From Echinometra lucunter (taxonomy: Eukaryota; Echinodermata; Echinoidea; Camarodonta; Echinometridae), in the NCBI GenBank assembly GCA_029962745.1, contig CM057171.1, positions 18,379,633-18,443,632 on the forward strand: a stretch of 64,000 nt of DNA, in the 5' to 3' direction. The notes under the pieces were generated by a model that saw only the letters and a program-made list of their open reading frames with translations, ran no database searches and was not told the origin of the DNA. The position numbers and the translations under genes are program-made. Below, one piece after another: positions 34,203 to 63,248 of the stretch (positions within the stretch are counted from its first letter, which is position 1; every line of letters starts with the position of its first letter).

Positions 34203-34251
<49 letters not shown>

Positions 34252-43200: not shown

Positions 43201-44362
43201 AAATACGACCCTACGGTAAAGTATTTCCACTAGGCGGGTGGGGGACAGTATGTCGAATGTTTATTACCGTTTATTTTTTTTTTCCAAATCGGATTTACCT
43301 TTGCAACAAAAGTCTTCGAACTGAAACAAACCTGTTGTAGCTAATATATTTTTCTTTGTCTTCTAGCATGTCTAAAATAAACCCGGTGAAAGCCTATATT
43401 TTTTTTACTATACTTACGCGAACAATTGGGAAAACTTCTGTCGAAATTGCCATCTCTTGTGCAGGTAACTATTGACGTTCCACTGAGCTCATGCGTTGGT
43501 GGACAAGAAAAGTTGCATTGCGCACCGTAGCTAACCGACGTATTATTAGGACAGTTAGTATTCATTTGTAGTTGCGGGTTTATAACAGGTACTTCGCACA
43601 TTACACCTATATTGCAAAGAAAAAAAAAACAATACAGGAGTGCTAGATTACTACGATTTAGAATCATAATGGCTGAGGGCAGAAAATATCCTCACTTTCA
43701 TATTCCGCCGAATATGAGATAATGTAGTTAATGATATAGAGTACTTTGCATAACTTTTTTCTTTTTTCATTATCTGTCGCAAAATTAAAAAAAAAAACAG
43801 AAGGGCAGATATTCAGGCCAAAGAGGCGTTAACATATACACTATGTCTCTTCCCCCACCGCCACCTTACGTCACACACTTTCAAAAAACGCTCCATGGCT
43901 CATCATTCGTAGAGGTGTAGAGGTGTTATGGCCTAGTGAAAAGTATCCGGATCCGCTCAAGCCCCCCCCCCCCCTAAGAAAATGACGATATAGGTGCAAT
44001 TTTACAATCCTCCAGTACCCCCCCCCAAGATTTTGCTCTAGAACAACGTCCTACTATTCGATAGCCAGGAGGGGGTACAATTAGCAGATGGCTGTCCCAT
44101 AAGTGTAATATTTTCTGCACAAAAGAAGTTGCACTGCTCGCCGTAGTTTACTCTCTCATTATTTCCGCAAGCAGTCTCCAATGTCGCGTTTGCCGTAGGT
44201 ATGTCACACGTTACAGCTATATATTTTTTTTTTTTATAAAAGAGACAACCCCCCCCCCCCCGAGTATTAGATTCCTGTAGTTTAGAAATGATGCCCGATT
44301 ATATTCATATAAATAAATATTATACGGTATTATAATGACGAAATTAGATTTTACTGCTGTCG

Positions 44363-44400
<38 letters not shown>

Positions 44401-47400
44401 AACAAGCAAACAGGAAATGGTAGATTATTCAGGCGTAAGAGGAGTTAACTGCCGCTCCCCTCCCCACCCCCTTTACACCACCACCCATTGGCATAAATCC
44501 CGGGGGATGGAAGGATATATCCCCCACTTTTTTGAGATTGGGGATGGCGTGTACAAATATCCCCCCCCACACACACACACACACTTTTTACTGAAGAAAT
44601 GAAATTTGAATTAATCATTTAATAAAATTTGTAATAATCTGTCATAAGCAACCATCATATTTTAGAATTTTTATTTGAAAATAGCTGAAAACCAGAAAAT
44701 CAGTTATTTTTGGCTCGCTCGCTTCGCTTGCTCATCATATGTTAGAATTTTCGTTTGAAAATGCGATTGAAAACCAGAAAAGTGGTTATTTTTGGCTCGC
44801 TCGCTTCGCTCGCTGGCAAAAATAACAATTGAAATGTGTGTAAGGTGGGTCTGTGCAGGGGGGTGAGGGTGCGTGTGTTTTTACTTAAGTGTAGGGGGGG
44901 ATCAAGTATGGGTATTCAGATAACAAAATTATTTAAACGATATTCTAAAAAAAAATTGAATCTAGATAAAAATCTACCAATCTGAATCTGAATTTAAATG
45001 TGAATGTGAATATGACATTAAACTGATCAAGTATAGCCTTATATAAGATGGGTTACTTAAAACAAGGTTTCTGATGCCATTGCGTAATTCGTTATATGGC
45101 CACGACCGTGCTATATAACGCGTTATATTGCACGCTAATATGTGTACAAAATCCCATAGGAAAATGCGTCGCCTTCCAGGAAAAAGGCCGTTATCGACCT
45201 TTTCTCAATTTTCCCGCCATTTTTTTATCATTGCAGAAATGGAAAAAGCATGTCATAAGCTTTCTTCTCGTACCATTCTCGAACCTCAATTTGACGTCAT
45301 TTTGACGTAATAAGCCAAAAAACAAAATTACGCGAGCACGTGAACTGCTCCTCACTCAACGTGCTTACGCGCACAGACCGATTTGCAACAGCGTCCCTTT
45401 TCTGGGAACTATTGCGCATTTTTTGTTCCCGGAAGAAAGACACTATTCTTCGCTCAACGTGCTTACGCGCATAGACCGATTCGCATTAGCGGCCTCTTTC
45501 CAGGAACTGGATTTACGTACTCGCGCATAATTGTTCCGGGAAGAAAGCCGTTAAGGATTAAATGCTAATGATTGGAAAACCTTTAGAGTGTTTTGAATAA
45601 AAGCACAAAATATCAATGAAGAAAAAATCTTGCTCTGTCAGAAAGTTTGAGAGTTAGGACGGAAAAATAATACACTAGCTGCTAAAAGCTAAAAATAAGG
45701 TCAAAACTTCAATCCCGTTTTTCTCGAAAACGTACATTTCGCGCACGTGCGTGTTAGTGGCCCTTTTTCCGGGAAGGCGACGAATGTATCGATAACTTAC
45801 AAATTATCTATAATACGGAGTTCGTTGCACTTTATCAGCGGATGTTGCAATGTTTATAGTTTGGCGAGCTCCGATTCCCATCTTATATAACGCATAGTAC
45901 ATGCTCATTTTCGTCAAATATACCATAAAATGTGCAGCTATAGATAAAATTTTTCTCTCGTGCACTATATCATAGCACTATATATGCACTTGAGAAATTC
46001 TATAACTATGGATGCACATATTACGGTATATTCAACTCCAGAACATGCACTATATTTATGATATCGTCCATTTTGCATGAAAAGATATATGTGGTAAATT
46101 ATGTGACATTCCTTCCACGCGATTCCGACGAATTTTAGTGTAAATGTGCGAGTGAAACGCAATATAACGGTCACACTCAACGGAATGCTCCGACACCTCC
46201 ACGCCGACGAGAAGGAGCTCGGCGTAAAACACACAGCGATTCGCTGTGTACGTGCGGGCAAATGAAACTCCCATTGGTTTTATATGTGTACGGGCACTGT
46301 GTGATGCTGTGTTGACAATGTTTTCGGGGGTCCGAAAATTAAAGGTTTGACATTTTGATTGTAAAATACACCCACATAAATGTGTTTTTATTCAATATCC
46401 TATACATCATAAAGGTTTTATGATACAGTCTCTCATCTCATTTGGCAATGGATTGAAATAGGAAAGATACTTTTCTGAGATTTACCGAAACCCCGGGGGG
46501 GGGGGGGTTACTTCCATTGAAGAGTGGACAGCATCCGCGAGAAAAAAACGCGGAAAAGGGGTATTTTTTCAGGTGTAGGTGCGGAACGCGAATAGAGTCT
46601 CAAAAACGCCCAAAAAATGAAAAAAAAAAGGCCCACTAAATCACGATCATCTAAAACGCGAAAAGGGTATGTAATTTGCACCGACCGGGGGACCGACTGT
46701 AACACGACCCATGAACGGAAAATGTTGTAACGCCTGTGTAAAACATAATGAGACAGTGAATTATCTCGAGATAAAAACGGCTCCAAACTTTCAATGGACC
46801 CCACTATCACTCTCAAGGTATGAAAATGGGAATATTCTCGTTTAGGGTATGAATATCCCAACAGTTAATGAAATCCCCGTTTAGGGTGTGCAAATCTGGG
46901 ACATCTGCACAAAATCCTTGTTTAGGGTGTCCTAGCGGCCTGCCCTTGAATCCTCGTTTAGGGTGTTTTTTTTTTAGGACGATTCTCGCGGATGCTGTCC
47001 ACTCTTCAATGGAAGTGACCCCCCCCCCCCCCCCCCGGGACCAAAACTAGAGTCAAGCTTTAAGGATTGGAAATCAGATTATAAGTTACTTGCTGAACAG
47101 TTCACGCCAGTATAACCAGCAACACAGGTACAATTGTAGGAGTTCACGCCATCTGTACATGTCCCGCCATTTTCACATGGATTAAGACTGCAGTTATCAA
47201 TATCTGTAATAAAAAAAAAATAGTTCTAATGAAATAAAACACTTGAAAAAGGGCGGGAAAGTTTACATGATTCTCATTCACGTAAAACAAAAAAATATCT
47301 GCGTAGATCAGCTAAGAATTTGAGATTAGAAGTTTGCATACTTTTGTTGTACAGTCCAAAGACATTTTTAGAATCAAGGTACATGTACATGTAGATACTA

Positions 47401-48812
47401 AGTTGATATAAGGAAGAAAGAAGTAAGATCACATATATATTAGAATGTTTCAAATCTAAGTGAAACATTTGCACATTTCACTACTCCTAATCCCATCCTC
47501 TCTATCGTTATGAGGTGTACGTTAGTGTAAGCCATCGTAAATCATTATCAGAAAATAAAATGTGGGGTCTGACTTTGTGCGATCACCTTGAATTTACAGA
47601 CACAAACCCTGGTCAATCGAAACACGTTACAGTCTGAACAGAAGACTAAATGAGTTCTAAGGGGATCATGTACTCTAGCTGCCCATGATATTGACACAGC
47701 AAGTAGCATGCATGTTGGATAGGCTATTCTCAAGACGCAGTTCATTCTAATGAATTGTTAATAATGGTCTGTTTTTGCAGCCTAGATTATTATACAAATT
47801 ATTTATTGAATGATTACTTGTAATTAATTTCTTTGTTCTACAAATATTGTTTTCTACAATGACCCCTTGATTAAAATTGCGGTGTGGCCTCTGTTGAGAT
47901 GGTAAGGTTCAAGAGGAACTCAGATATTTTTTTAAAACTTCAATTTGTCTTTTTTTGTTTTTTGTAGCTTCGCTTTCTAGAAATATTTTAACAGGGCGGT
48001 TCATCTTGCAAGAGGCGCCATTTCCTCCAAATGTAAAAACGCTTCACGTTCCTACAGATCCCTTGTTTCGAGGTTACAGCGTAAATGTTCATTATCAAGA
48101 CTAAAGGATTTAGAATCAGATTATAAGTTACCTGTTGAGCAATTCACACCAGTGTAACCAGCAACACAGGTACAGTTGTAGGAGTTCACGTCATCTGTAC
48201 ATGTCCCACCATTTTCACAGGGATTAGGACTACAGTCATCAATATCTGTAATCAAAAGCAAAATAGTTCTAATGAAACAAAACACTTGAAAGGGGGCAGG
48301 AAAGGTTACATAATACTCATCCAAATTTTAAAAAAAAATATTTGCGTAGATCAGCCACGAAATTAAGATTACGTGTGTTATCAGTCTATTACAGCGTAAA
48401 TGTTCATTATCAAGACTAAAGGATTTAGAATCAGATTATAAGTGGTAAAATGTACTCTCGGAAAACCATCTTCTGAAAATTTCATTAGCCCCTAATCACC
48501 TTTCGATATGTGAGAACATTACAATGGCATATTACGTTATCCAAATATGATCTAGATGGACAGTACACATGGTAGAATGGGCTTTTGAAATAGCCACTGA
48601 GTTGATTTTCGAAAGTGCGTTTTATTGTGTTATCGGTCTATTACAGCGTAAATTTTCATTATCAAGACTAAAGGATTTAGAATCAGATTATAAGTTACCT
48701 GTTGAGCAATTCACACCAGTGTAACCAGCAACACAAGTACAGTTGTAGGAGTTCACGTCATCTGTACATGTCCCACCATTTTCACATGGATTAGGACTAC
48801 AGTCATCAATAT
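32016..48812 (-). CDS. partial gene: EGF/CCP mosaic single-pass membrane protein
   Basis: Summary of a gene whose exons are listed below. In order on the minus strand: three EGF exons (phase 1-1), a CCP exon (1-1), a 33-nt microexon (1-1), then exons with phases 1-0, 0-1, 1-2, 2-0, and a last exon starting in phase 0 and ending in TAA. All junctions have GT-AG and the phases agree throughout, which is strong support for one transcript. The predicted product is a cell-surface protein with an extracellular EGF/CCP region, a membrane-proximal EGF, one TM helix and a ~150-residue basic then Tyr-rich cytoplasmic tail. The 5' end (signal peptide) is missing, presumably in or beyond the N gap. I do not recognise the orthologue; a function in adhesion or recognition is inferred from domains only. 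Confidence 0.7.
32799..33114 (-). CDS. exon: end of EGF domain, TM helix and juxtamembrane region
   Basis: Starts after AG (33,115-33,116) in phase 2 and ends before GTAAGA (donor 32,798). It begins [12 protein letters not shown], the last two Cys of an EGF domain begun on the previous exon. A short Gly/Asp-rich linker and a hydrophobic helix of about 26 residues ([20 protein letters not shown] and on) follow, then a basic stop-transfer (YRRMRW) and an Arg-rich stretch. The orientation is type I: EGF outside, basic tail inside. Confidence 0.85.
33115..35252 (-). other. intron
   Basis: Intron of the minus-strand gene inside the membrane-proximal EGF domain (phase 2). It contains (AT)n at about 34,205-34,260, a (TG)n tract at about 34,337-34,370, and a G-tract, 'GGAGCGAAGTGA'-bearing repeat fragment at about 34,751-35,010. 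Confidence 0.7.
35253..35358 (-). CDS. exon: first half of membrane-proximal EGF
   Basis: Acceptor TTTCAG precedes 35,358 (phase 1) and donor GTGAGT starts at 35,252 (phase 2). It encodes [20 protein letters not shown] and [14 protein letters not shown]. When spliced to the next exon the Cys pattern completes a six-Cys EGF ([20 protein letters not shown]). Confidence 0.85.
35491..35565 (+). mobile_element. tRNA-derived SINE head-like segment
   Basis: An A-box-like TGGCCTAGTGGATA and a B-box GATTCGAGTCC are spaced as in a tRNA, inside the large intron. A full cloverleaf is not clear, so a SINE head is more likely than a tRNA gene. Confidence 0.4.
35881..39682. mobile_element. 3.8-kb element with long inverted repeats and internal tandem array
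   Basis: The ends are a perfect ~29-bp TIR starting CCTTATACAGTGTGTATCAA. Homology in inverted orientation continues deep inside: 36,000-36,240 against 39,330-39,560, and 36,660-36,980 against 38,740-39,010. Between them is a four-copy ~397-bp tandem repeat (36,754-38,210). TTGA/TGAC-rich microsatellites lie near both inner arm ends. There is no transposase ORF. It sits in the large intron of the receptor gene. Confidence 0.7.
36754..38210 (+). repeat. four-copy ~397-bp tandem repeat
   Basis: Units begin near 36,754, 37,151, 37,549 and 37,941 with TTAATGTTGCCAGC. Units 1 and 2 are almost identical; units 3 and 4 are more diverged and slightly shortened. Part of the unit recurs inverted at 38,740-38,940. 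Confidence 0.9.
39897..40092 (-). CDS. exon: unclassified ectodomain segment
   Basis: The donor GTGAGA follows 39,897 in phase 1, matching the next exon. The proposed acceptor is the AG at 40,093-40,094 (phase 0), although its upstream tract is poor. The ~65 residues run from [20 protein letters not shown] through a hydrophobic stretch ([15 protein letters not shown]) to SIEGVIVE. The pattern faintly recalls the helical part of GAIN domains, but no GPS is visible and I do not assign it. An in-frame ATG at 40,104 is within the presumed intron. Confidence 0.55.
40105..41248 (-). other. intron with LINE 3'-end-like fragment
   Basis: Pyrimidine-rich DNA (about 40,866-41,000) is followed by a TCTTCGGACTTTTCATTTGG segment and a (TTGAAC)n tail at about 41,148-41,175. 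This is the same layout as 6700-7743 and probably a CR1/L2-type LINE 3' end. Confidence 0.45.
41249..41349 (-). CDS. candidate exon (phase 1-0)
   Basis: Bounded by CGCACAG (AG at 41,350-41,351) and a good donor TTTATG|GTAAGTG. The reading frame is open and links the phase-1 microexon to the phase-0 exon at 40,092. It encodes [17 protein letters not shown].. to [11 protein letters not shown]. The hydrophobic start is odd for an ectodomain, so the acceptor may be elsewhere. Confidence 0.4.
41500..41690 (-). pseudogene. decayed copy of the UCA tRNA-like locus
   Basis: 41,500-41,554 matches the 5' half of the tRNA-like gene at 29,645-29,716, including TCA in the loop, but the T arm is replaced by unrelated sequence. 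The adjoining 41,555-41,690 matches the flank at 29,717-29,850 (GGCGACTCCAAATTCGCTTA). Confidence 0.65.
41826..42116. mobile_element. fold-back MITE
   Basis: Left arm CAACGCATTCGCTCTGTTAG with GGGTGAATTTCAGAAGA. The right arm carries the complements (TTCTGAAATTTG, then AATTCACCTCTAACAGAG and TTAATGCGGGTT). A central perfect palindrome is built on GACCTCAGTGATCACTCAA. Confidence 0.65.
42445..42477 (-). CDS. 33-nt microexon
   Basis: The acceptor TTTTGCAG precedes 42,477 and the donor GTAAGA starts at 42,444. Thirty-three nt, phase 1-1, encode [10 protein letters not shown] plus the split codons. It has two Cys and two N-glycosylation sequons (NCT, NDT). Its phase fits between the CCP exon and the 41,349 exon. 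Confidence 0.55.
43418..43606 (-). CDS. exon: CCP (sushi) domain
   Basis: 189 bp, phase 1-1, acceptor AATATAG and donor GTAAGT. It encodes [20 protein letters not shown] and on, with [11 protein letters not shown], a Leu-Ser-Gly turn, VTCTRDGNF and a final PNCS. The six Cys, the YGxxC segment, the 'C..G.F....P.C' ending and the 63-residue length fit a CCP/sushi module of the six-Cys kind. N-glycosylation sequons at NNTS and NFS are visible. Confidence 0.8.
44085..44216 (-). pseudogene. truncated CCP exon copy
   Basis: After an acceptor (TATATAG), the frame [19 protein letters not shown] and [20 protein letters not shown] aligns with the first two thirds of the CCP exon at 43,606. The C-terminal third, with its last Cys pair and donor, is missing, and unrelated sequence starts near 44,080. 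It is a relic exon duplicate unless a 3' part lies on another exon. Confidence 0.65.
44217..46491. other. intron, repeat-rich
   Basis: A long A-run at 44,366-44,399, two ~83-bp direct repeats with GGCTCGCTCGCTTCGCT (about 44,711 and 44,795), and a duplicated CAACGTGCTTACGCGCA.AGACCGATT segment (about 45,358 and 45,456). No exon recognised. Confidence 0.5.
46492..47039. mobile_element. 548-bp element with ~50-bp TIR and 8-bp near-perfect TSD
   Basis: The ends CCCGGGGG.. and ..CCCCCGGG continue as complementary arms (ACTTCCATTGAAGAGTGGAC and AGCATCCGCGAGAA). Flanks ACCGAAAC (46,484-46,491) and ACCAAAAC (47,040-47,047) match at 7 of 8. The interior repeats 'CGTTTAGGGTATG' motifs. It lies in an intron of the receptor gene, about 40 bp from an EGF exon. 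Confidence 0.7.
47090..47203 (-). CDS. exon: calcium-binding-type EGF (A)
   Basis: 114 bp, phase 1-1. It encodes [19 protein letters not shown] and [19 protein letters not shown]. All six Cys are present, with D-I-D before Cys1 and N..Y between Cys3 and Cys5, as in cbEGF modules. The donor is A|GTAACT. Confidence 0.85.
48132..48245 (-). CDS. exon: calcium-binding-type EGF (B)
   Basis: 114 bp, phase 1-1, [19 protein letters not shown] and [20 protein letters not shown]. As far as I can read it, the protein is identical to exon C. Donor G|GTAACT. Confidence 0.85.
48378..48441 (-). repeat. partial copy of the EGF-exon flank
   Basis: GTGTTATCAGTCTATTACAG.. to ..GAATCAGATTATAAGT repeats the sequence next to exon C (48,628-48,695) and part of that next to exon B, but stops where the exon would begin. 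It is a remnant of unequal duplication. Confidence 0.65.
48699..48812 (-). CDS. exon: calcium-binding-type EGF (C)
   Basis: 114 bp, phase 1-1, same protein as exon B, with near-identical intron flanks. The B-to-C spacing is 567 bp. This is the most 5' exon visible; more copies may lie in the gap. Confidence 0.85.
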
Positions 48813-48946
48813 CTGTAATCAAAAGCAAAATAGTTCTAATGAAACAAAACACTTGAAAAAGGGCGGGAAAGTTTACATAATACTCATCCAAATAATAAAA
48901 AAATATTTGCATAGATCAGCCACGAAATTAAGATTAGAAGTTTGCA

Positions 48947-49446
48947 NNNNNNNNNNNNNNNNNNNNNNNNNNNNNNNNNNNNNNNNNNNNNNNNNNNNNN
49001 NNNNNNNNNNNNNNNNNNNNNNNNNNNNNNNNNNNNNNNNNNNNNNNNNNNNNNNNNNNNNNNNNNNNNNNNNNNNNNNNNNNNNNNNNNNNNNNNNNNN
49101 NNNNNNNNNNNNNNNNNNNNNNNNNNNNNNNNNNNNNNNNNNNNNNNNNNNNNNNNNNNNNNNNNNNNNNNNNNNNNNNNNNNNNNNNNNNNNNNNNNNN
49201 NNNNNNNNNNNNNNNNNNNNNNNNNNNNNNNNNNNNNNNNNNNNNNNNNNNNNNNNNNNNNNNNNNNNNNNNNNNNNNNNNNNNNNNNNNNNNNNNNNNN
49301 NNNNNNNNNNNNNNNNNNNNNNNNNNNNNNNNNNNNNNNNNNNNNNNNNNNNNNNNNNNNNNNNNNNNNNNNNNNNNNNNNNNNNNNNNNNNNNNNNNNN
49401 NNNNNNNNNNNNNNNNNNNNNNNNNNNNNNNNNNNNNNNNNNNNNN
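48947..49446. other. assembly gap, 500 N
   Basis: Exactly 500 unknown bases, with EGF-array intron sequence on the left edge and FN3-array intron sequence on the right edge. The true length and the relative orientation of the two sides are not shown by the sequence. ORFs made of X are artefacts. Confidence 0.95.
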
Positions 49447-52400
49447 CAGTCGTATCCATGCAAATTAAATTAAATTTCCTAAAAGGATGGATACGAAATT
49501 TGTTAGCAGAACAATACAGAATCATCGACATTGACCCCTCAATTTTCATAATCGTGTACATATCCCACTTTCCTTTCCAGAAAATTTGATGGTAGAAAAC
49601 TTGATGGTGACTGAAGAAACAGGAACATCCATCTCCGTTAATTGGAGCAAACCCTCTGGCGAGTTGGATTTTTACGATGTAACCTGTTCATCTCACGATG
49701 AATCTTGGTATGAACGAATTGATGCAGTCCGGACCAATTTCACTTGCACAAATCTAACGTGTGAAACGAACTACACCATTACAGTTGAAACGGTTATTCG
49801 AAACCATAAATGTACTCCAGCTATGATTACAGCACGAACTCGTAAGTATATCAAATATTTTGTTCAGAGCCAGTCGTATCCATGTAAATTAAATTAGAAT
49901 TTCCTAAAAGATGGATACGAAAGTTGTAAACAGAAACAGAATCATCGACATGACCCCTCAATTTTCATAATCGTGTACATTTTCTCACTTTCCTTTCCAG
50001 AAAATTTGATGGTAGAAAACTTGATGGTGACTGAAGAAACAGGAACATCCATCTCCGTTAATTGGAGCAAACCCTCTGGCGAGTTGGATTTTTACGATGT
50101 ACCTGTTCATCTCACGATGAATCTTGGTATGAACGAATTGATGCAGTCCGGACCAATTTCATTGCACAAATCTAACGTGTGAAACGAACTACACCATTAC
50201 AGTTGGAACGGTTATTCGAAACCAGAACTGTACTCCAGCTATGATTACAGCACGAACTCGTAAGTATATCAAATATTTTTGTTCAGAGCCAGTCGTATCC
50301 ATGTAAATTAAATTAGAATTTCCTAAAAGGATGGATACGAAAGTTGTAAACACAACAATACAGAATCATCGACATTGACCCCTCAATTTTCATAATCGTG
50401 TACATTTTCTCACTTTCCTTTCCAGAAAATTTGATGGTAGAAAACTTGATGGTGACCGAAGAAACAGGAACATCCATCTCCGTTAATTGGAGCAAACCCT
50501 CTGGAGAGTTGGATTTTTACGATGTAACCTGTTCATCCCACGATGAATCTTGGTATGAACGAATTGATGCAGTCCGGACCAATTTCACCTGCACAAATCT
50601 AACGTGTGAAACGAACTACACCATTACAGTTGGAACGGTTATTCGAAACCAGAACTGTACTCCAGCTATGATTACAGCACGAACTCGTAAGTATATCAAA
50701 TATTTTTTCAGAGCCAGTCGTATCCATGTAAATTAAATTAGAATTTCCTAAAAGGATGGATACGAAATTTGTAGTAGAAAAATAGAGAATCATCGACATT
50801 GACCCCTCAATTTTCATAATCGTGTACATTTTCTCACTTTCCTTTCCAGAAAATTTGATGGTAGAAAACTTGATGGTGACCGAAGAAACAGGAACATCCA
50901 TCTCCGTTAATTGGAGCAAACCCTCTGGCGAGTTGGATTTTTACGATGTTACCTGTTCATCTCACGATGAATCTTGGTATGAACGAATTGATGCAGTCCG
51001 GACCATTTCACCTGCACAAATCTAACGTGTGAAACGAACTACACCATTACAGTTGGAACGGTTATTCGAAACCAGAACTGTACTCCAGCTATGATTACAG
51101 CACGAACTCGTAAGTATATCAAATATTTTTGTTCAAGAGCCAGTCGTATCCATGTAAATTAAATTCAAATTTCCTAAAAGGATGGATACGAATTTGTTTA
51201 GTAGAACAATACAGAATCATCGACATTGACCCCTCAATTTCATAATCGTGTACATTTTCCCACTTTCCTTTCCAGAAAATTTGATGGTAGAAAACTTGAT
51301 GGTGACCGAAGAAACAGAACATCCATCTCCGTTAATTGGAGCAAACCCTCTGGCGAGTTGGATTTTTACGATGTTACCTGTTCATCTCACGATGAATCTT
51401 GGTATGAACGAATTGATGCAGTCCGGACCAATTTCACTTGCACAAATCTAACGTGTGGAAACGACCTACAACCATTACAGTTGGAACGGTTATTCGAAAC
51501 CAGAACTGTACTCCAGCTATGATTACAGCACGAACTCGTAAGTATATCAAATATTTTGTTCAGAGCAAGTCGTATCCATGTAAATTAATTCAGAAATTTC
51601 CTAAAAGGATGGATACGAAATTTGTTTGTAGAAGAATAGAGAATCATTGACATTGACCCTCAATTTTCATAATCGTGTACATATATCATTCCACTTTCCT
51701 TTCTTTCCTTTCCAGAAAAATTTGATGTAGAAAACTGATGGTGACCGAAGAAAACAGAAACATCCATCTCCTTATTGGAGCAAACCCTCTGGCGAGTTGG
51801 ATTTTTACGATGTTACCTGTTCATCTCACGATGAATCTTGGTATGAACGAATTGATGCGTCCGGACCAATTTCACTTGCACAAATCTAACGTGTGAAACG
51901 AACTACAAACCATTACAGTTTGGAACGGTTATTCGAAACCAAACTGTACTCCGCTATGATTACAGCACGAACTCGTAAGTATATCAAATATTTTGTTCAG
52001 AGCAAGTCGTATCCATGTAAATTAAATTCAGAATTTCCTGAAAGGATGGATACGAAATTTGTTTGTAGAAGATAGAGAATCATCGACTGACCCCTCAATT
52101 TTCATAATCGTGTACATATTCCCACTTTCCTTTCCAGAAAATTTGATGGTAGAAAACTGATGGTGACCGAAGAAACAGGAAAATCCATCTCCGTTAATTG
52201 GAGCAAACCCTCTGGCGAGTTGGATTTTACGATGTTACCGGTTCATCTCACGATGATCTTTGGTATGAACGAATTGATGCAGTCCGGACCAATTTCACTT
52301 GCACAAATCTAACGTGTGAAACGAACTACAAACATTACAGTTGGAACGGTTTTCGAACCAGAACTGTACTCCAGCTATGATTACAAGCACGAACTCGTAA

Positions 52401-55400
52401 GTATATGAAATATTTTTGTTCAGAGCCAGTCGTATCCATGTAATTAAATCAGAATTTCCTAAAAGGATGGATACGAAAGTTGTAAACACAACAATACAGA
52501 ATCATCGACATTGAACCCTCAATTTTCATAATCGTGACGTTTCTTCTCACTTTCCTTTCCAGAAAATTTGATGGTAGAAAACTTGATGGTGACCGAAGAA
52601 ACAGGAACATCCATCTTCGTTAATTGGAGCAACCCTCTGGCGATTGGATTTTTACTATGTTTACCTGTTCATCTCACGATGAATCTTGGTATGAACGAAT
52701 TGATGCAGTCCGTACCAATTTCACTTGCACAAATCTAACGTGTGAAACGAACTAAACAACCATTACAGTTGGAACGGTTATTCGAAAACCAGAACTGTAC
52801 TCCAGCTATGATTACAGCACGAACTCGTAGTATATCAATATTTTTGTTCAGAGCCAGTCGTATCCATGTAAATTAAATTAGAATTTCCTAAAAGGATGGA
52901 TACGAAAGTTGTAAACACAACATACAGAATCATCGACATTGACCCCTCAATTTTCATAATCGTGTCATTTTCTCACTTTCCTTTCCAGAAAATTTGATGG
53001 TAGAAACTTGATGTGACCGAAAAAACAGGAACATCCATCTCCGTTAATTGGAGCAAACCCTCTGGAGAGTTGGATTTTACGATGTAACCTGTTCATTCCC
53101 ACGATGAATCTTGGTATGAACGAATTGATGCAGTCCGTCCGGACCAATTTCAACTTGCACAAATCTAACGTGTAAAACGAACTACATACAAAAACACCAT
53201 TACAGTTGGAACGGTTATTCGAAACCAGAACTGTACTCCAGCTATGAGTACAAGCACGAACTCGTAAGTATATCAAATATTTTTGTTCAGAGCCAGTCGT
53301 ATCCATGTAAATTAAATTAGAATTTCCTAAAGGTGGATACGAAAAGTTTGTAACACAACAATACAGAATCATCGACATGACCCCCTCAATTTTCATCATC
53401 GTGTTACATTTTCTCACTTTCCTTTCCAGAAAATTTGATGGTAGAAAACTTGATGGTGACCGAAGAAACAGGAACATCCAGCTCCGTTAATTGAGCAAAC
53501 CCTCTGCGAGTTGGATTTTTAAGCGATGTTACCTGGTTCATCATCCCAGCGATGAAGCTTGGTATGAACGAATTGAATGCAGTCCGGACCACTTTCAACT
53601 TGCAACAAATCTAACCGTGTGAAACTGAACTACACATACAAACCATTAACAGTGGAACGGTTATTCGAAACCAGAAACTGGTACTACTCACCAGCTATGA
53701 TGAAAGCACGAAACTCGGAAGTAAAAATATCAAATATTTTTGTTCAGAGCAAGTGCGTAATCCATGTAAAATTAAATTCATGAATTCCTAAAAGGATGGA
53801 TACGAATTTGTTAGTAGACAGAATAGAGAATCATCGACATTGACCCCTCAATTTTCATAATCGTGTACATATTCCCACTTTCCTTTCCAGGAAAATTTGA
53901 TGGTAGAGAAAACTTGATGGTGACCGAAGAAATAGGAACATCCATCTCCGTTAATTGGAGCAAACCTCTGGCGAGTTGGATTTTTACGATGTTACCTGTT
54001 CATCTCACGATGAATCTTCGGTATGAACGAATTGATGCAGTCCGAACCAATTTCCACTTGCACAAATCTAACGTGTGAAACGAACTAACAACCATTACAG
54101 TTGGAACGGTTATTCGAAACCAGAACTGTACTCCAGCTATGATTACAGCACGAACTCGTAAGTATATCAAATATTTTTGTTCAGAGCAAGTCGTATCCAT
54201 GTAAATTAAATTCAGAATTTCCTAAAAGGATGGATACGAAATTTGTTTGTAGAAGAATAGAGAATCATTGACATTGACCCCTCAATTTTCATAATCGTGT
54301 ACATATTCCCCACTTTCCTTTCTTTTCCTTTCCAGAAAATTTGATGGTAGAAAACTTGATGGTGACCGAAGAAACAGGAACATCCATCTCCGTTAATTGG
54401 AGCAAACCCTCTGGCGAGTTGGATTTTTACGATGTTACCTGTTCATCTCACGATTAATCTTGGTATGAACGAATTGATGCAGTCCGGACCAATTTCACTT
54501 GCACAAATCTAACGTGTGAAACGAACTACAACACCATTACAGTTGGAACGGTTATTCGAAAACCAGAACTGTACTCCAGCTATGATTACAGCACGAACTC
54601 GTAAGTATATCAAATATTTTTGTTCAGAGCAAGTCGTATCCATGTAAATTAAATTCAGAATTTCCTGAAAGGATGGATACGAATTTGTTAGTAGAAGAAT
54701 AGAGAATCATCGACATTGACCCCTCAATTTTCATAATCGTGTACATATTCCCACTTTCCTTTCCAGAAAATTTGATGGTAGAAAACTTGATGGTGACCGA
54801 AGAAATAGGAACATCCATCCTCCGTTAATTGGAACAAACCCTCTGGCGAGTTGGATTTTACGATGTTACCTGTTCATCTCACGATGAATCTTGGTATGAA
54901 CGAATTGATGCAGTCCGGACCAATTTCACTTGCACAAATCTAACGTGTGAAACGAACTACAACACCATTACAGTTGGAACGGTTATTCGAAACCAGAACT
55001 GTACTCCAGCTATGATTACAGCACGAACTCGTAAGTATATCAGATATTTTTGTTCAGAGCAAGTCGTATCCATGTAAATTAAATTCAGAATTTCCTAAAA
55101 GGATGGATACGAAATTTGTTAGTAGAAAATAGAGAATCATCGACATTGACCCCTCAATTTTCATAATCGTTTACATTTTCTCACTTTCCTTTCCAGAAAA
55201 TTTGATGGTAGAAAACTTGATGGTGGCCGAAGAAACAGGAACATCCATCTCCGTTAATTGGAGCAAACCCTCTGGAGAGTTGGATTTTTACGATGTAACC
55301 TGTTCATCCCACGATGAATCTTGGTATGAACGAATTGATGCAGTCCGGACCAATTTCACTTGCACAAATCTAACGTGTGAAACGAACTACACCATTACAG

Positions 55401-58400
55401 TTGGAACGGTTATTCGAAACCAGAACTGTACTCCAGCTATGATTACAGCACGAACTCGTAAGTATATCAAATATTTTTGTTCAGAGCCAGTCGTATCCAT
55501 GTAAATTAAATTCAGAATTTCCTAAAAGGATGGATACGAAATTTGTTAGTAGAAGAATAGAGAATCATCGACATTGACCCCTCAATTTTCATAATCGTGT
55601 ACATTTTCTCACTTTCCTTTCCAGAAAATTTGATGGTAGAAAACTTGATGGTGACCGAAGAAACAGGAACATCCATCTCCGTTAATTGGAGCAAACCCTC
55701 TGGAGAGTTGGATTTTTACGATTTAACCTGTTCATCCCACGATGAATCTTGGTATGAACGAATTGATGCAGACCGGACCAATTTCACTTGCACAAATCTA
55801 ACGTGTGAAACGAACTACACCATTACAGTTGGAACGGTTATTCGAAACCAGAACTGTACTCCAGCTATGATTACAGCACGAACTCGTAAGTATATCAAAT
55901 ATTTTTGTTCAGAGCCAGTCGTATCCATGTAAATTAAATTAGAATTTCCTAAAAGGATGGATACGAAATTTGTTAGTAGAAGAATAGAGAATCATCGACA
56001 TTGACCCCTGAATTTTCATAATCGTGTATTTATTTATTTATTTATTTATTAAAGTTTTGTTTAAAATAGAGGGTAGGTACATTCAGTAAAATATACTGCT
56101 TTTCAAGTACGCCCTCTAGGACAATACATGAAACAATACCATAATCATACATATAAGTGATATACACAAAATATAATATTCATAAAATACACATAATGTA
56201 ACATGAAATGAAATACGAAAATAACATTAGAAAAATAGGATTAGAAAAAATAAGACTAAGGAGAGGAAAATGAGGGCAGAAATTCTATTTTTATGATTAT
56301 AATGAATATTTTGCTAATCGGCATCCACGCTTGAATGTTTCAAATTGTTTAATTGATTGGACTGTGAAAGGGAGTTTATTAAACAGGGAGCTTGCTTTAT
56401 AAGAAAATGATCTTTTTTTAAATTCAGTTTTGGGGTATGGAATGTCAAGTAGAGAATTTTAAGAGTACCGGGTACAATAGTTAGAGGTGCGATAATTGAT
56501 TAATGATTTTAAATACTTTGGGGCCATGGCATTTATAATTTTAAAGACTAACAAACAGTAGTGATATTTTATTCTTTGCTCAACAGATTGCCAATTTAAA
56601 GTTGTAAGCAGTAAACACTGGGGTGTGTCATAGTCCTTATTTAAAATTAATCTCGCATATCTATTTTGCAGTTTTTGTAATTTTAATAAATTTGTCTTTG
56701 AACAATTTCCCCAAGCAGTGCAACAATAGTCAATATGTGGTAAGATCAAAGCAAAGTAAAGGTTCATTAGAGTTCTGGGGGGTATTAGATGTTTGATACG
56801 ACGGATACAGCCAATAGAACGGGAAATTTTAGTACAAATATATTTGATGTGTTCAGACCACGTTAGTTGCGAGTCAAGTATAACTCCTAGGTATTTTATA
56901 GTTTCGACACACTGTAAGTTATTACCATTAAAATTAATTGAGAGACAATTGTTTTCCAACTTTCTTTTTGACCCGAAAGACATAACCATGGTTTTCTGTG
57001 GGTGTATATACATCTTATTTATATTAAACCTTTTACATATTAAGTTAAAATCATTTTGCAAATTTGTTTGAACTTCAGAAAAATTGCTAGAGTAATTAAA
57101 AATGACAGTATCGTCAGCATAAAGAGATAGCTTAGAATTTTTATGAATTTTTAGATTATTAATGTCATTTGTATACAAGCAAAAAATTAGTGGGCCCAAG
57201 ATTGACCCTTGTGGTACCCCAGATTTAACAGTTAGATATTCACTGCAATGATTATCTATTGTAACACAATGTTGTCTTCCCATCAGGTAAGATTTAAACC
57301 AATCATGCACCTTATTACTTATGCCATACAATATTAGTTTATCAAGTATTATTTCATGTGGAATAACATCAAAGGCTTTCCTAAGATCATAAAATATTGC
57401 TCCAGTAATCTGACCCGAATTCATATTATCCAAAAGATAGTCAGTAATTTCAGTGAGACATGTGATTGTGGAATGGAGTGGTCTAAATCCAGATTGACGT
57501 TCTGATAACAATTTTTTTTGGTTGAGGTAAGAGTACAATTGTTTATGGATAGCTTTTTCTAGAATTTTTGACAGAGAGGGCAGTATTGAGATGGGCCTGA
57601 AATTATCTACACTAAACGTACCTCCTTTATGTATTGGGGTGATTTTTGCAACCTTGAAATCAAATGGGAATATTGAAGATTTTAGTGATTGGTTAAATAA
57701 TAAGGTAAGTGGTTTAGCAATGATATCCGCAGATAATTTAAGTAACTTGGGATGAAGACCGTCCATTCCTACAGCTTTTTTACAATCGATATTGCGTAGT
57801 TCATTTCTAACAAATTCTAATTTGATTTCCTGAAATTCGAAAGTACAATCGGTTTGAGATAAAGTTTTAAAGAATTAAAATTATCTGCAGTGTTATTACA
57901 TATACTAGTTTGTAAATTTGAACTCACCTTATTAAACGTTTCATTCAATACACTTGCCACTTTTTCTTTGTCGGTTATTATTTCATCATCAATTATAATT
58001 GTGTTGTTTACCTCATTTTGCTTTGAAGGTAAAAGTCTTTTCAAAACCTTCCAATTTTTATTCAAATCATTCCCACATTCCGAGAACTCGTTTTGATAAT
58101 ACTCTTTTTTAAGTTTTTTGTTCAGGTTATTTGCTTTGTTTCGATAAAATTTGAACTTATCCCCAAAACAATCACATTTCGTGGTCTTATACTTTTTCTT
58201 ATAATAATCACGGTCTCGTGCTAAAGTAATATATTCATCTGTAATCCAAGGCACACCATTTCGCTTTCTTCTGTACATATTCCCACTTTCCTTTCCAGAA
58301 AATTTGATGGTAGAAAACTTGATGGTGACCGAAGAAACAGGAACATCCATCTCCGTTAATTGGAGCAAACCCTCTGGCGAGTTGGATTTTTACGATGTTA

Positions 58401-61400
58401 CCTGTTCATCTCACGATGAATCTTGGTATGAACGAATTGATGCAGTCCGGACCAATTTCACTTGCACAAATCTAACGTGTGAAACGAACTACACCATTAC
58501 AGTTGGAACGGTTATTCGAAACCAGAACTGTACTCCAGCTATGATTACAGCACGAACTCGTAAGTATGTCAAATATTTTTGTTCAGAGCCAGTCGTATCC
58601 ATGTAAATTAAATTAGAATTTCCTAAAAGGATGGATACGAAAGTTGTAAACAGAACAATACAGAATCATCGACATTGACCCCTCAATTTTCATAATCGTG
58701 TACATTTTCTCACTTTCCTTTCCAGAAAATTTGATGGTAGAAAACTTGATGGTGACCGAAGAAACAGGAACATCCATCTCCGTTAATTGGAGCAAACCCT
58801 CTGGAGAGTTGGATTTTTACGATGTAACCTGTTCATCCCACGATGAATCTTGGAATGAACGAATTGATGCAGTCCGGACCAATTTCACTTGCACAAATCT
58901 AACGTGTGAAACGAACTACACCATTACAGTTGGAACGGTTATTCGAAACCAGAACTGTACTCCAGCTATGATTACAGCACGAACTCGTAAGTATATCAAA
59001 TATTTTTGTTAAGAGCCAGTCGTATCCATGCAAATTAAATTCAGAATTTTCTAAAAGGATGGATACGAAAGTTGTAAACAGAACAATACAGAATCATCGA
59101 CATTGACCCCTCAATTTTCATAATCGTGTACATTTTCTCACTTTCCTTTCCAGAAAATTTGATGGTAGAAAACTTGATGGTGACTGAAGAAACAGGAACA
59201 TCCATCTCCGTTAATTGGAGCAAACCCTCTGGAGAGTTGGATTTTTACGATGTAACCTGTTCATTTCACGATGAATCTTGGTATGAACGAATTGATGCAG
59301 TCCGGACCAATTTCACTTGCACAAATCTAACGTGTGAAACGAACTACACCATAACAGTTGGAACGGTTATTCGAAACCAGAACTGTACTCCAGCTGTGAT
59401 TACAGCACGAACTCGTAAGTATATCAAATATTTTTGTTCAGAGCCAGTCGTATCAATGCAAATTAAATTCAGAATTTTCTAAAAGGATGGATACGAAATT
59501 TGTTAGCAGAACAATAGAGAATCATCGACATTGACCCCTCAATTTTCATAATCGGGTACATTTTCTCACTTTCCTTTCCAGAAAATTTGATGGTAGAAAA
59601 CTTGATGGTGACTGAAGAAACAGGAACATCCATCTCCGTTAATTGGAGCAAACCCTCTGGAGAGTTGGATTTTTACGATGTAACCTGTTCATCTCACGAT
59701 GAATCTAGGTATGAACGAATTGATGCAGTCCAGACCGATTTCACTTGCACAAATCTAACGTGTGAAACGAACTACACCATTACAGTTGGAACGGTTATTC
59801 GAAACCAGAACTGTACTCCAGCTATGATTACAGCACGAACTCGTAAGTATATCAAATAATTTGTTAAGAGCCAGTCGTATCCATGTAAATTAAATTAGAA
59901 TTTCCTAAAAGGATGGATACGAAAGTTGTAAACAGAACAATACAGAATCATCGACATTGACCCCTCAATTTTCATAATCGTGTACATATTCCCACTTTCC
60001 TTTCCAGAAAATTTGATGGTAGAAAACTTGATGGTGACCGAAGAAACAGGAACATCCATCTCCGTTAATTGGAGCAAACCCTCTGGCGAGTTGGATTTTT
60101 ACGATGTAACCTGTTCATCTCACGATGAATCTTGGTATGAACGAATTGATGCAGTCCGGACCGATTTCACCTGCATAAATCTAACGTGTGAAACGAACTA
60201 CACCATTACAGTTGGAACGGTTATTCGAAACGAAAACTGTACTCCAGCTATGATTACAGCACGAACTCGTAAGTATATCAAATATTTTTGTTAAGAGCCA
60301 GTCGTATCCATGGAAATTAAATTAGAATTTCCTAAAAGGCTGGATACGAAATTTGTTAGCAGAAGAATAGAGAATCATCGACATTGACCCCTCAATTTTC
60401 ATAATCGGGTACATTTTCTCACTTTCCTTTCCAGAAAATTTGATGGTAGAAAACTTGATGGTGACTGAAGAAACAGGAACATCCATCTCCGTTAATTGGA
60501 GTAAACCCTCCGGCGAGTTGGATTTTTACGATGTAACCTGTTCATCTCACGATGAAACTTGGTATGAACGAATTGATGCAGTCCGGACCTATTTCACCTG
60601 CACAGATCCAACGTGTGAAACGAACTACACCATTACAGTTGGAACGGTTATTCGAAACCAGAACTGTACTCCAGCTATGATTAAAGCACGAACTAGTAAG
60701 TATATCAAATATTTTGTTAAGGGCCAGTCGTATCCATGGAAATTAAATTAGAATTTCCTAAAAGGATGGATACGAAATTTGTTAGTAGAAGAATAGAGAA
60801 TCATCGACATTGACCCCTCAATTTTCATAATCGTGTACATATTCCCACTTTCCTTTCCAGAAAATTTGATGGTAGAAAACTTGATGGTGACTGAAGAAAC
60901 AGGAACATCCATCTCCGTTAATTGGAGCAAACCCTCCGGCGAGTTGGATTTTTACGATGTTACCTGTTCATCCCACGATGAATCTTGGTATGAACGAATT
61001 GATGCAGTCCGGACCTATTTCACCTGCACAAATCTAACGTGTGAAACGAACTACACCATTACAGTTGGAACGGTTATTCGAAACCAGAACTGTACTCCAG
61101 CTATGATTACAGCACGAACTAGTAAGTATATCAGATATTTTGTTAAGAGCCAGTCGTATCCATGTAAATTAAATTAGAATTTCCTAAAAGGATGGATACG
61201 AAATTTGTTAGTAGAAGAATAGAGAATCATCGACATTGACCCCTCAATTTTCATAATCGTGTACATATTCCCACTTTCCTTTCCAGAAAATTTGATGGTA
61301 GAAAACTTGATGGTGACCGAAGAAACAGGAACATCCATCTCCGTTAATTGGAGCAAACCCTCTGGAGAGTTGGATTTTTACGATGTAACCTGTTCATCCC

Positions 61401-63248
61401 ACGAATCTTGGTATGAACGAATTGATGCAGTCCGGACCAATTTTGCTTGCACAAATCTAACGTGTGAAACGAACTACACCATTACAGTTGGAACGGTTAT
61501 TCGAAACCAGAACTGTACTCCAGCTATGATTACAGTGCGAACTCGTAAGTATATCAAATATTTTTGTTCAGAGCCAGTCGTATCCATGTAAATTAAATTA
61601 GAATTTCCTAAAAGGATGGATACGAAATTTGTTAGCAGAAGAATAAAGAATCATAGACATTAATCCCTCAATTTTCATAATCGGGTACATTTTCTCACTT
61701 TCCTTTCCAGAAAATTTGATGGTAGAAAACTTGATGGTGACTGAAGAAACAGGAACATCCATCTCCGTTAATTGGAGCAAACCCTCTGGCGAGTTGGATT
61801 TTTACGATGTTACCTGTTCATCTCACGATGAATCTTGGTATGAACGAATTGATGCAGTCCGGACCAATTTCACCTGCACAAATCTAACGTGTGAAACGAA
61901 CTACTCCATTACAGTTGGAACGGCCATTCGAAACCAGAATTGCTCTCTAGTTATGATTAAAGCACAAACTAGTGAGTAGGGTATAACATCATGTGTTTTG
62001 CTATGGGTCATCATCCATGTAAATTTAGTTAAAATTTCCTACAATTTATAACAAAGTTTAATACAATAATTGTCAATAGAATAATACAAAATCACCGAAA
62101 TGGCACATGAATTTACATTATCCTGTACAAACTCTTACTTTCCATCCAGAAAACTTTTTATACTTAATGTATACTTAAATCTCTAGCCACACATACACGT
62201 AAATGAGAAATTTGCTGTCGCATGTCGGATCGAATATAGCATGGATCCTACTAGAATTTAGAGAGGCCAGTACATTCCAGCGCATGCAGTGTTTTTCGCG
62301 TTGTCAGCATAATGTTCGTGTATTCGCAGGTGGGCTGGTTCGTATGGGATGTTCGATCTCATTAACACGCAGTACCTCGCGCAGAACTGGATTACAGTGC
62401 TCTTCACCGCGATATTTGCCAGCATTGCGTGAAGCGCCATCTATACACCAAGTCCGCGTAGCTTTAAAAGTTGTCGTCTATTTCAATTCGATCATAATTT
62501 CCCACAATATTTGATATGATGGTTGTAAGTTTACAATATGGAATCTCTAATATGGCCTGTGAATTTACATTATTCTTTCAATATTTTCACCTTCCATCCA
62601 GAAAACCTTACAGTAGAAAACTTGACAGTGAATGAAGTAACAGGAACATACATCTCCGTTAATTGGATCCGACCGTCTAGCGAGTTTGATTTTTATGATG
62701 TGACCTGCTTATCCCGCGATGAATCTTGGTATGAACGAATTGATGCAGTCCGGACCAATTTCACCTGCTCAAATCTTACGTGTGAAATGAGCTACATCAT
62801 TACAGTAGGAACGGTCATTCGAAATCAGAATTGTACTCCAGCCGTAGTTACAGCACAAACTCGTAAGTATGTTATATTTTTTCATGGTTTTGTTAAGAAT
62901 CGTCATCCGGGTACGTTTACAATATGGAATCTCTGACATGGCCTGTGAATTTACATTATCATTTAAATATTTTCACCTTCCATCCAGAAAACTTTACGGT
63001 AGAAAACCTGACCCTCACTGAAGAAAGAGGAACATCCATCTCCGTAAATTGGAACCGACCGTCTAGTGAGTTTGATTTTTATGATGTGACCTGCTCATCC
63101 CTTGATGAATCTTGGTATGAACGAATAGATGCAGTCCGGACCAATTTCACCTTCACAAATCTAACGTGTGAAACGAACTACACCATTGCAGTAGGAACGG
63201 TCATTCGAAACAAGAATTGTACTCAAGTAACAGTTACCGCTCAAACTC
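49447..63248 (+). CDS. partial gene: tandem array of 26 FN3-like exons
   Basis: Summary entry; exons follow. The consensus exon is 261 bp, phase 1-1. It starts after TTTCCTTTCCAG and ends ACT C|GTAAGTATATC. The 87-residue domain has FN3 hallmarks: ENLMVENL at the start, SVNW (core Trp), DFYDV (core Tyr), NYTITVGTV (strand F Tyr) and a terminal ARTR-like end. It also has four Cys (DVTC, FTC, LTC, NCT) and up to four N-glycosylation sequons (NFT, NLT, NYT, NCT), suggesting a disulphide-stabilised, heavily glycosylated extracellular stalk or ligand-binding region. No signal peptide, TM or catalytic domain is in the window. It could belong to a receptor phosphatase, adhesion molecule or similar; I do not name it. 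Confidence 0.8.
49581..49841 (+). CDS. FN3 exon 1 (intact)
   Basis: 261 bp, phase 1-1. It differs from consensus at TVETVIRNHKC, which loses the last sequon. First unit after the gap. Confidence 0.85.
50001..50259 (+). pseudogene. FN3 exon 2 (two 1-base deletions)
   Basis: 259 bp. One base is lost at the DVTC codons (about 50,100) and one at FTC (about 50,162). The frame breaks, while splice sites are kept. Confidence 0.75.
50426..50686 (+). CDS. FN3 exon 3 (intact, consensus)
   Basis: 261 bp, phase 1-1, full open frame, all four Cys and sequons. The following intron is a good reference for the intronic hairpin (50,718-50,765). Confidence 0.9.
50850..51109 (+). pseudogene. FN3 exon 4 (1-base deletion)
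   Basis: 260 bp; one A is missing in the RTNFT codons (about 51,005). Confidence 0.75.
51276..51537 (+). pseudogene. FN3 exon 5 (indels)
   Basis: 262 bp: one base deleted near 51,316 and two inserted near 51,458 and 51,468. Confidence 0.7.
51716..51974 (+). pseudogene. FN3 exon 6 (many indels)
   Basis: At least eight single-base indels, including in ENL, VNW and the NCT region. The preceding intron has a duplicated TTTCC segment. Confidence 0.7.
52138..52396 (+). pseudogene. FN3 exon 7 (many indels)
   Basis: Several one-base losses and gains, for example near 52,159, 52,227, 52,356 and 52,385. Confidence 0.7.
52563..52826 (+). pseudogene. FN3 exon 8 (indels, altered donor)
   Basis: Frame broken at several places; the donor reads GTAGTA instead of GTAAGT, consistent with a one-base loss. 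Confidence 0.7.
52989..53263 (+). pseudogene. FN3 exon 9 (indels, small duplications)
   Basis: Longer than consensus because of a repeated GTCC near 53,137 and an insertion near 53,190 (ACATACAAAAAC). Confidence 0.7.
53430..53716 (+). pseudogene. FN3 exon 10 (heavily disrupted, donor lost)
   Basis: The most damaged unit. It has over a dozen small insertions and a GT-to-GG change at the donor (CTCGGAAGTA). Confidence 0.7.
53891..54157 (+). pseudogene. FN3 exon 11 (indels)
   Basis: An extra G directly after the acceptor, plus several indels in the SWYER and FTC regions. Confidence 0.7.
54336..54600 (+). pseudogene. FN3 exon 12 (nonsense codon and frameshift)
   Basis: GAA to TAA in SHDES (about 54,454), a 3-base insertion adding Asn before TIT, and a 1-base insertion near 54,560. 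Confidence 0.75.
54767..55030 (+). pseudogene. FN3 exon 13 (+1/-1 frameshift pair)
   Basis: An inserted C near 54,819 and a lost T near 54,857 put the region around the core Trp out of frame. The rest, including an extra Asn, is open. Confidence 0.7.
55197..55457 (+). CDS. FN3 exon 14 (intact)
   Basis: 261 bp; the single visible change is MVAEETG. Confidence 0.9.
55625..55885 (+). CDS. FN3 exon 15 (intact)
   Basis: 261 bp; DLTC and IDADRT replace DVTC and IDAVRT. The LINE lies in the intron that follows. Confidence 0.9.
56029..58271 (-). mobile_element. 5'-truncated CR1/L2-like LINE inserted in an array intron
   Basis: The inserted DNA interrupts the standard intron exactly between ..AATCGTGTA and CATATTCCC.. 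TGTA flanks it on both sides (56,025-56,028 and 58,272-58,275). The minus-strand 3' end is a (TAAA)n microsatellite tail and no endonuclease domain remains. Target-primed insertion of a 5'-truncated copy explains this. Confidence 0.85.
56297..58265 (-). pseudogene. reverse transcriptase ORF, frameshifted and with an internal stop
   Basis: The first part (58,265 to about 57,850) starts at KRNGVPWITDEYITLARDRD, the linker seen between endonuclease and RT in Jockey/CR1-group LINEs. A one-base shift near 57,850 leads into the RT proper: NFRPISILPSLSKILEK, QSGFRPLHST, the F-x-D motif A (FYDLRKAFD), motif B SGVPQGSILGPLIF, the catalytic YADD box (SLYADDTVIF), and LGVILDSQLTWSEH. A stop at 56,459-56,461 is followed in the same frame by a further ~53 codons with the typical SLFNKLP segment, ending at 56,297. 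The copy cannot be autonomous. Confidence 0.85.
58299..58559 (+). CDS. FN3 exon 16 (intact, consensus)
   Basis: 261 bp; first exon after the LINE. Its donor is GTAAGTATG rather than GTAAGTATA. Confidence 0.9.
58726..58986 (+). CDS. FN3 exon 17 (intact)
   Basis: 261 bp; SWNERID replaces SWYERID. Confidence 0.9.
59154..59414 (+). CDS. FN3 exon 18 (intact)
   Basis: 261 bp; CSFHDE and PAVITART differ from consensus. Confidence 0.9.
59582..59842 (+). CDS. FN3 exon 19 (intact)
   Basis: 261 bp; ESRYERIDAVQTDFTC: a Trp is lost, and Asn to Asp removes the NFT sequon. Confidence 0.9.
60008..60268 (+). CDS. FN3 exon 20 (intact)
   Basis: 261 bp; RTDFTCINLTC and RNENC differ from consensus. Confidence 0.9.
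60435..60695 (+). CDS. FN3 exon 21 (intact)
   Basis: 261 bp; DETWYER, RTYFTCTDPTC and MIKART. Two sequons are lost. The exon ends ACT A rather than ACT C. Confidence 0.9.
60861..61121 (+). CDS. FN3 exon 22 (intact)
   Basis: 261 bp; RTYFTC; ends ACT A like exon 21, pointing to a shared duplication. Confidence 0.9.
61287..61544 (+). CDS. FN3 exon 23 (intact, one codon shorter)
   Basis: 258 bp. A clean 3-base deletion gives SSHESW; NFAC loses a sequon; MITVRT. Confidence 0.9.
61711..61971 (+). CDS. FN3 exon 24 (intact, transitional)
   Basis: 261 bp; NYSITVGTAIRNQNCSLVMI and KAQT at the end; donor GTGAGT. Its downstream intron departs from the array consensus. Confidence 0.85.
62150..62528. 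other. relic acceptor/exon start followed by unidentified CpG-richer insert
   Basis: TCCATCCAG at 62,141-62,149 followed by AAAACTTTTTATAC looks like the first bases of a lost FN3 exon. From about 62,165 unrelated, CpG-richer sequence runs to about 62,528. Short ORFs exist on both strands (62,203-62,514 plus; 62,258-62,440 minus) but lack recognisable domains. Confidence 0.45.
62602..62862 (+). CDS. FN3 exon 25 (intact, divergent)
   Basis: 261 bp; ENLTVENLTVNEVTGTYISV, NWIRPSSEFDFYDVTC, EMSYIITVGT and PAVVTAQT. All four Cys are kept. Its flanking intron sequence pairs with exon 26, not with exons 1-24. Confidence 0.9.
62988..63248 (+). CDS. FN3 exon 26 (intact, divergent, one Cys lost)
   Basis: 261 bp; NFTVENLTLTEERGTS, NWNRPSSEFD, NFTFTNLTC (second Cys replaced by Phe) and TQVTVTAQT. 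The donor GTAAGTGG continues to an exon outside the window. Confidence 0.9.

Follow-up and report, generated by a model that had tools for sequence, protein, structure and literature searches.

A tandem array of near-identical FN3 exons in Echinometra lucunter as a probable coding-exon VNTR of a putative giant membrane-anchored glycoprotein

The genomic stretch of 64,000 nucleotides from Echinometra lucunter analysed here (C21:18379633-18443632, referred to as the window) contains 26 tandem copies of an FN3 exon at 49581-63248 on the + strand, and the repeat unit of approximately 427 bp consists of one FN3 exon and its intron. Frame-neutral coding exons thereby recur with their introns in tandem, near-identical units, as in a coding-exon VNTR. 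The array is likely to be an expanded VNTR of this kind. The gene to which it belongs would encode a giant glycoprotein, probably anchored in the membrane, in which the number of copies would set the length of a rod. When spliced in series, the FN3 units would form a rod of at least 29-40 domains (about 2,500-3,500 residues) that could be glycosylated at the five N-glycosylation motifs of each consensus domain, and that would be followed by a mucin-like part rich in Thr, Ser and Pro, by a furin-like site, and by a single transmembrane helix with a short tail. The copies would be kept alike by unequal crossing-over, which would also change their number, so that alleles should differ in the length of the rod.

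Tandem Repeats Finder detected the array at 49447-61978 with a score of 13,414 and a period of 426, which is far beyond chance. Copies 1, 3, and 14-26 (15 of 26) are intact; 14 of these are exactly 261 bp, and copy 23 measures 258 bp. All 15 intact exons are preceded by AG, followed by GTAAGT (GTGAGT in copy 24), and have phase 1-1, so that they could be skipped or added without a frameshift, as had been stated in the initial annotation. The 261-bp phase 1-1 exons described there were thus recovered among the intact copies, whereas 11 of the 26 copies (2 and 4-13) are frameshifted in the assembly, with small indels in exons and introns alike. Similarly, the earlier value of ~166 bp for the introns agrees with the 165-167 bp found between clean copies 14-24, the LINE-bearing intron excepted, but not with introns 15 and 24, which are longer (630 bp for intron 24); intron 15 holds a LINE fragment of 2.2 kb with reverse transcriptase. 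Compared with a reference copy, copies 1-24 displayed 87-100% identity, with the low values in indel-rich copies (87% and 17 gap openings in the noisiest), and copies 25 and 26 displayed 87% and 84%. The array therefore has 26 tandem exons, as annotated initially, but near identity is confined to 24 of them, copies 25 and 26 being two older copies at its 3' edge. The start of the array contig, which follows a 500-N gap, already lies within the array, and 26 is for this reason a floor. The features of the array, of the exons downstream of it, and of a neighbouring gene (gene A) are listed in Table 1.

Table 1. Positions of the array, the exons inferred downstream of it, and gene A; coordinates beyond 64,000 continue the numbering of the window and refer to exons outside it, on the same strand and contig as the array
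Feature	Position	Strand	Remarks
Gene A	32649..48915	-	Paralogue of the array gene in the membrane-end module only
Gene A, transmembrane-like + tail exon	33.1 kb	-	
Gene A, exon shared with array gene	40.0 kb	-	
Gene A, RRNR exon	41.3 kb	-	
Gene A, Sushi-like exons	44.1, 43.5 kb	-	Cut-off 20.7 bits; one exon above it at 23.4, the other just under at 20.5
Gene A, EGF exons	48.8, 48.2, 47.2 kb	-	EGF 38.5 bits
500-N scaffolding gap	48947..49446	.	Directly followed by the array contig, the first bases of which already belong to the array; 5' end of gene missing
FN3 exons 1-4	49581..51109	+	1, 3 intact; 2, 4 frameshifted
FN3 exons 5-13	51276..55030	+	All frameshifted in assembly; many indels, taken for long-read sequence left unpolished
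FN3 exons 14-15	55197..55885	+	Intact
LINE fragment	56029..58271	-	Antisense in intron 15; RVT_1 123.7 bits; TGTA on both flanks
FN3 exons 16-24	58299..61971	+	Intact; divergence grows towards 3' edge
FN3 exon 25	62602..62862	+	Diverged edge copy
FN3 exon 26	62988..63248	+	Diverged edge copy, last FN3 exon found
Thr/Ser/Pro-rich frame, next inferred exon	starts ~64135	+	Phase-1 acceptor after exon 26; stop 64745
Long Thr/Ser/Pro open frame	64868-67696	+	943 residues, Thr+Ser+Pro 52%, composed of repeats
Exon with RRKR	73.5 kb	+	No Pfam family at cut-off
Further exon	75.7 kb	+	No Pfam family at cut-off
Exon with hydrophobic transmembrane-like stretch + tail	86493-86810	+	Read by eye; no Pfam family at cut-off; ends at next gap

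The FN3-like character assigned initially was corroborated by the match of the consensus exon to Pfam fn3 (PF00041) at 49 bits, above the curated cut-off of 25. The consensus domain contains four cysteines besides its N-glycosylation motifs, and the joined edge copies 25 and 26 resemble tenascin-R (E 4e-11) and fibronectin (E 7e-8) among solved structures. The AlphaFold model of 15 exon translations had a pLDDT of 45.3 and was unusable. In a search with a three-domain query, 3,169 candidates shared words with the query and none reached E <= 0.001, and a plasmid DNA search gave no match. The gene was not found in print in a literature search of limited library and terms; a sea urchin paper (PMC3812683) was checked and proved unrelated.

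Searches of the genome (743 Mb, 2,266 contigs) identified the unplaced contig C720, which is 15,288 bp long, is made of 31 array copies (23 in frame), and breaks off within the array on either side. The DNA search placed the unit, among the matches listed, in the window, on C720, and three times on contig C14 at 83-85% identity; it scored seven of eight candidate regions and contained 2 of the 31 C720 copies among these matches, by which absence elsewhere is weakly shown. A genome search for FN3 candidates was scored for 150 of 1,190. At a site identical to that in window intron 15, C720 carries the same LINE; the alignment of the two spans 2,284 positions and contains 11 mismatches and 41 gap openings. 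In the best register the window copies match C720 copies 14 places on, with a mean of 3.0 substitutions per unit over 15 units, as compared to 5.27 per unit for the next best of 29 offsets. This register is fixed by the LINE and copies 11-17, whereas copies 5-12 alone determine it weakly (21 versus 24 substitutions for two placements on C720) because of a repeated block in that contig. The near-zero difference in substitutions suggests that C720 and the window represent the same allele. Window copies 1-4 fit the four-copy blocks of C720 poorly (22 substitutions in four units at best), and may represent another allele or a misjoin.

Relative to the LINE, C720 has 29 copies to the left and the window has 11 to the right, which brings both contigs together to about 40 copies; the total falls to 29 should two duplicated blocks in C720 have arisen by erroneous assembly. 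These blocks are formed by C720 copies 5-9, which equal copies 10-14 (0 substitutions and 2 gaps in 2,137 bp), and by copies 15-20, which differ from copies 21-26 by 3 substitutions and 8 gaps. Mis-joined reads could in principle have inflated an array with far fewer true units, in line with its noisy middle, the gap at its edge, the overlap of an unplaced contig with a placed one, and the five-unit block repeated without a substitution. Nevertheless, copies 16-26 are clean and each of them is distinct, and dropping the repeated blocks (11 units) still leaves 18 copies to the left of the LINE and 11 to its right, and such inflation is regarded as most improbable. The finding of 31 copies on C720 also contradicts the proviso, raised with the initial annotation, that only a few copies might be real.

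Over 3,921 bp, window copies 5-13 differ from C720 copies 19-27 by 21 substitutions, 64 insertions, and 45 deletions, corresponding to a ratio of indels to substitutions of approximately 5:1. Unconstrained decay is expected to leave mostly substitutions, and uncorrected long reads mostly indels. As indels far exceed substitutions, the frameshifts of copies 5-13 are read as long-read or assembly error. The broken copies are also relevant to the possibility that the array is dead or untranscribed, i.e., a once-coding tandem repeat that now expands as a satellite: as assembled, the frame is lost in 11 of 26 copies in the window and in 8 of 31 on C720, the C720 copy adjoining the LINE (copy 30) has an in-frame stop, and a LINE has been inserted. 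Against this stand the indel character of the breaks in copies 5-13, the fact that the breaks in C720 include its noisy right end, the intronic position of the LINE, and the preservation of splice sites and reading frames in the clean copies, for which pN/pS amounted to 0.26. A dead array thus appears unlikely, although the outcome of the variant counts depended on the variants included. When each distinct variant was counted once, 26 were nonsynonymous and 11 synonymous, and neutrality was not rejected (P 0.20), whereas variants present in at least two copies comprised 6 nonsynonymous to 7 synonymous changes (6/13, P 0.014) and were depleted of amino-acid changes.

The pN/pS determination was performed on 40 exons (14 from the window and 26 from C720), of which 31 near-identical ones were compared and window copies 24-26 were treated apart. 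The remaining six of the 40 were left out, namely C720 copies 12, 21, and 26, which are frameshifted, and C720 copies 2, 5, and 10, which are in frame and were removed by a last-residue filter only. The 40 exons did not include window copy 23 (258 bp), the broken window copies, and C720 copies 27-31. For the 31 clean copies, pS was 0.042, similar to the intron diversity of 0.047, and pN was 0.011. When window copy 16 and C720 copy 1 were compared with the edge copies (25 and 26) and with the three copies on C14, pN/pS values of 0.25-0.48 were obtained, and pairs within the C14 copies gave values of 0.43-0.77. The low ratios point to purifying selection on the FN3 domain, less clearly so on C14.

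Among 31 units (8 from the window and 23 from C720), diversity was 1.8% in exons and 4.7% in introns, indicating that introns are less alike than exons. The initial annotation had taken near identity of both as a sign of very recent duplication or gene conversion; the identical multi-unit blocks agree with recent duplication or homogenisation. Mean nearest-neighbour difference was 0.17% in C720 copies 1-27 versus 2.04% in window copies 14-24 (38 units in total), and copies 25-26 differ from the array copies by approximately 15%. Identical blocks in the interior together with a diverged edge are predicted by unequal crossing-over, and this pattern, of which the gradient is seen at the 3' edge only with the 5' edge missing from the assembly, points to that process. 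Taken together, the sequences point to an array shaped by unequal crossing-over under purifying selection.

The low exon diversity also bears on a reading in which the array serves as an exon bank, with one or a few FN3 exons chosen per transcript, or with variable skipping, so that splicing would generate diversity. In arthropods, Dscam, a cell-surface gene, has tandem duplicated exons, and its alternative exons differ and are mutually exclusive. The array resembles it in having tandem duplicated exons in what is probably a cell-surface gene, and all 15 intact exons are frame-neutral and hence skippable. Unlike those of Dscam, however, the exons hardly differ here: with the diversity, pN, and pN/pS given above, choice among them would alter almost nothing, and the introns are near-copies too. 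Exon choice is for that reason very unlikely, and the Dscam-like idea put forward speculatively in the initial annotation is not upheld. Of the two options named there, a very long FN3 stalk or an exon bank, the first is the more likely in view of the mucin-like and transmembrane-like exons downstream, the joins to which are inferred.

These downstream exons (Table 1) would extend the array gene through the first Thr/Ser/Pro frame, putatively joined to the long frame, and over a further 19 kb, in a tentative exon order, to the transmembrane-like exon. As the Thr/Ser/Pro, RRKR, and transmembrane-like exons share the strand and the contig of the array, the latter probably encodes the ectodomain of a membrane mucin. 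The long Thr/Ser/Pro frame at 64868-67696 is itself a repeat array in which several periods overlap (51 bp, for example), and likely constitutes a second length-variable part of the gene. A SEA-like designation considered for the 75.7-kb exon was dropped, as it had no Pfam match. No further exon of the FN3 kind was found in the 60 kb downstream of the window, and two weak FN3-like matches there (E 0.01 and 0.034; 35-39% over 36-40 residues) were taken for chance.

Gene A resembles the array gene in the RRKR, 75.7-kb, and transmembrane-like exons, at 57-70% identity (62% over 24 residues for the RRKR exon); how the array contig is oriented with respect to this gene derives from scaffolding alone. 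The three membrane-end exons are also present on contig C2048, together with a Sushi-like match to gene A, and occur partly on the next contig as well. Judged by these sequences, the membrane-end module seems to be common to the relatives and the outer part to vary among them. Just left of the window, at C21:18375660-18376139, lies a further transmembrane-like exon with tail that is 83% identical to that of gene A; its match contains two TAA stops and it is possibly a pseudogene. Within gene A, two adjoining EGF exons at 48124-48915 (-), directly beside the 500-N gap that also borders the array, encode identical EGF domains, which suggests recent exon duplication in gene A too. Elsewhere in the window, at 29645-29716 (-), a tRNA gene was detected (Rfam 61 bits; anticodon TCA according to ARAGORN), the body of which we take to resemble tRNA-Glu; it could thus be either an atypical tRNA that reads UGA or a repeat derived from a tRNA.

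In the paralogue on C14, a signal-peptide-like exon, identified by eye and with a phase-1 end, precedes three FN3 exons, and a short Thr/Ser/Pro frame comes after these, in an order matching that of the array gene; no membrane-end or transmembrane exon was found within the 20 kb fetched. Its signal-peptide-like exon was found only on C14 among the stretches tested. A second exon of this type, 71% identical to the first, is located at C14:6678731-6679111 (-) and is perhaps another tandem family member. Moreover, contig C1198 carries at approximately 18.6-25.4 kb a second FN3 gene, with 33-40% identity per domain to the array gene. This gene has a tandem unit of its own, which is ~1.7 kb long and comprises two FN3 exons; four copies that were compared differ by 0.8-2.2%. 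Recent duplication of FN3 exons is therefore not unique to the window.

Several known systems resemble the array in part. The LPA KIV-2 repeat, with 1-40 units per allele, a unit of 5.6 kb with two exons, and demonstrated allelic variation (PMC11462820), likewise consists of near-identical tandem exon-intron units that each encode one in-frame folded domain and is hard to assemble; it encodes a kringle in a secreted plasma protein, whereas the unit described here encodes FN3 in one exon and measures 0.43 kb. In the polymorphic mucins of Schistosoma mansoni (SmPoMuc), a 27-bp exon encoding 9 residues recurs in a 1-kb unit up to ~20 times (PMC2576457). These share with the array a mucin gene in which an exon and its flanking introns stand in nearly identical tandem, and they could not be assembled; gene conversion is favoured by their authors and an edge gradient was not observed (PMC2576457), whereas the array has a 3' edge gradient and, unlike SmPoMuc, a folded FN3 domain. 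A very long FN3 array is also found in the sea lamprey tenascin TN50, which has 131 FN3 domains, many with identical amino-acid sequences (PMC11401434); there, EGF domains precede and a fibrinogen-related domain follows the FN3 domains, whereas here Thr/Ser/Pro and transmembrane-like exons follow, and the downstream frames that were read showed no tenascin end. On the basis of these accounts, domain-exon VNTRs are already known (LPA KIV-2, SmPoMuc, TN50), and the array is probably another one, in a different gene.

To our knowledge, coding VNTRs of whole folded domains are few. They are badly assembled; in the present case the unit is short and the copies are numerous. With its five- and six-unit blocks and its 3' gradient, the array appears to have been captured mid-process, which makes it a test of how unequal crossing-over and purifying selection shape a domain array. 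We tentatively propose, as a possibility that goes beyond the reading of the array as a coding-exon VNTR, that the FN3 copy number acts as a fast-changing molecular ruler, with alleles ranging from ~29 to well over 40 units, such that the length of the glycoprotein might differ by many FN3 domains between individuals, alongside the second coding repeat (Thr/Ser/Pro). Selection might then maintain the domain sequence and let the length drift or diversify, for example in cell-surface recognition. If its length is allelic, the array would correspond, in an invertebrate and within a membrane mucin, to the repeat of LPA.
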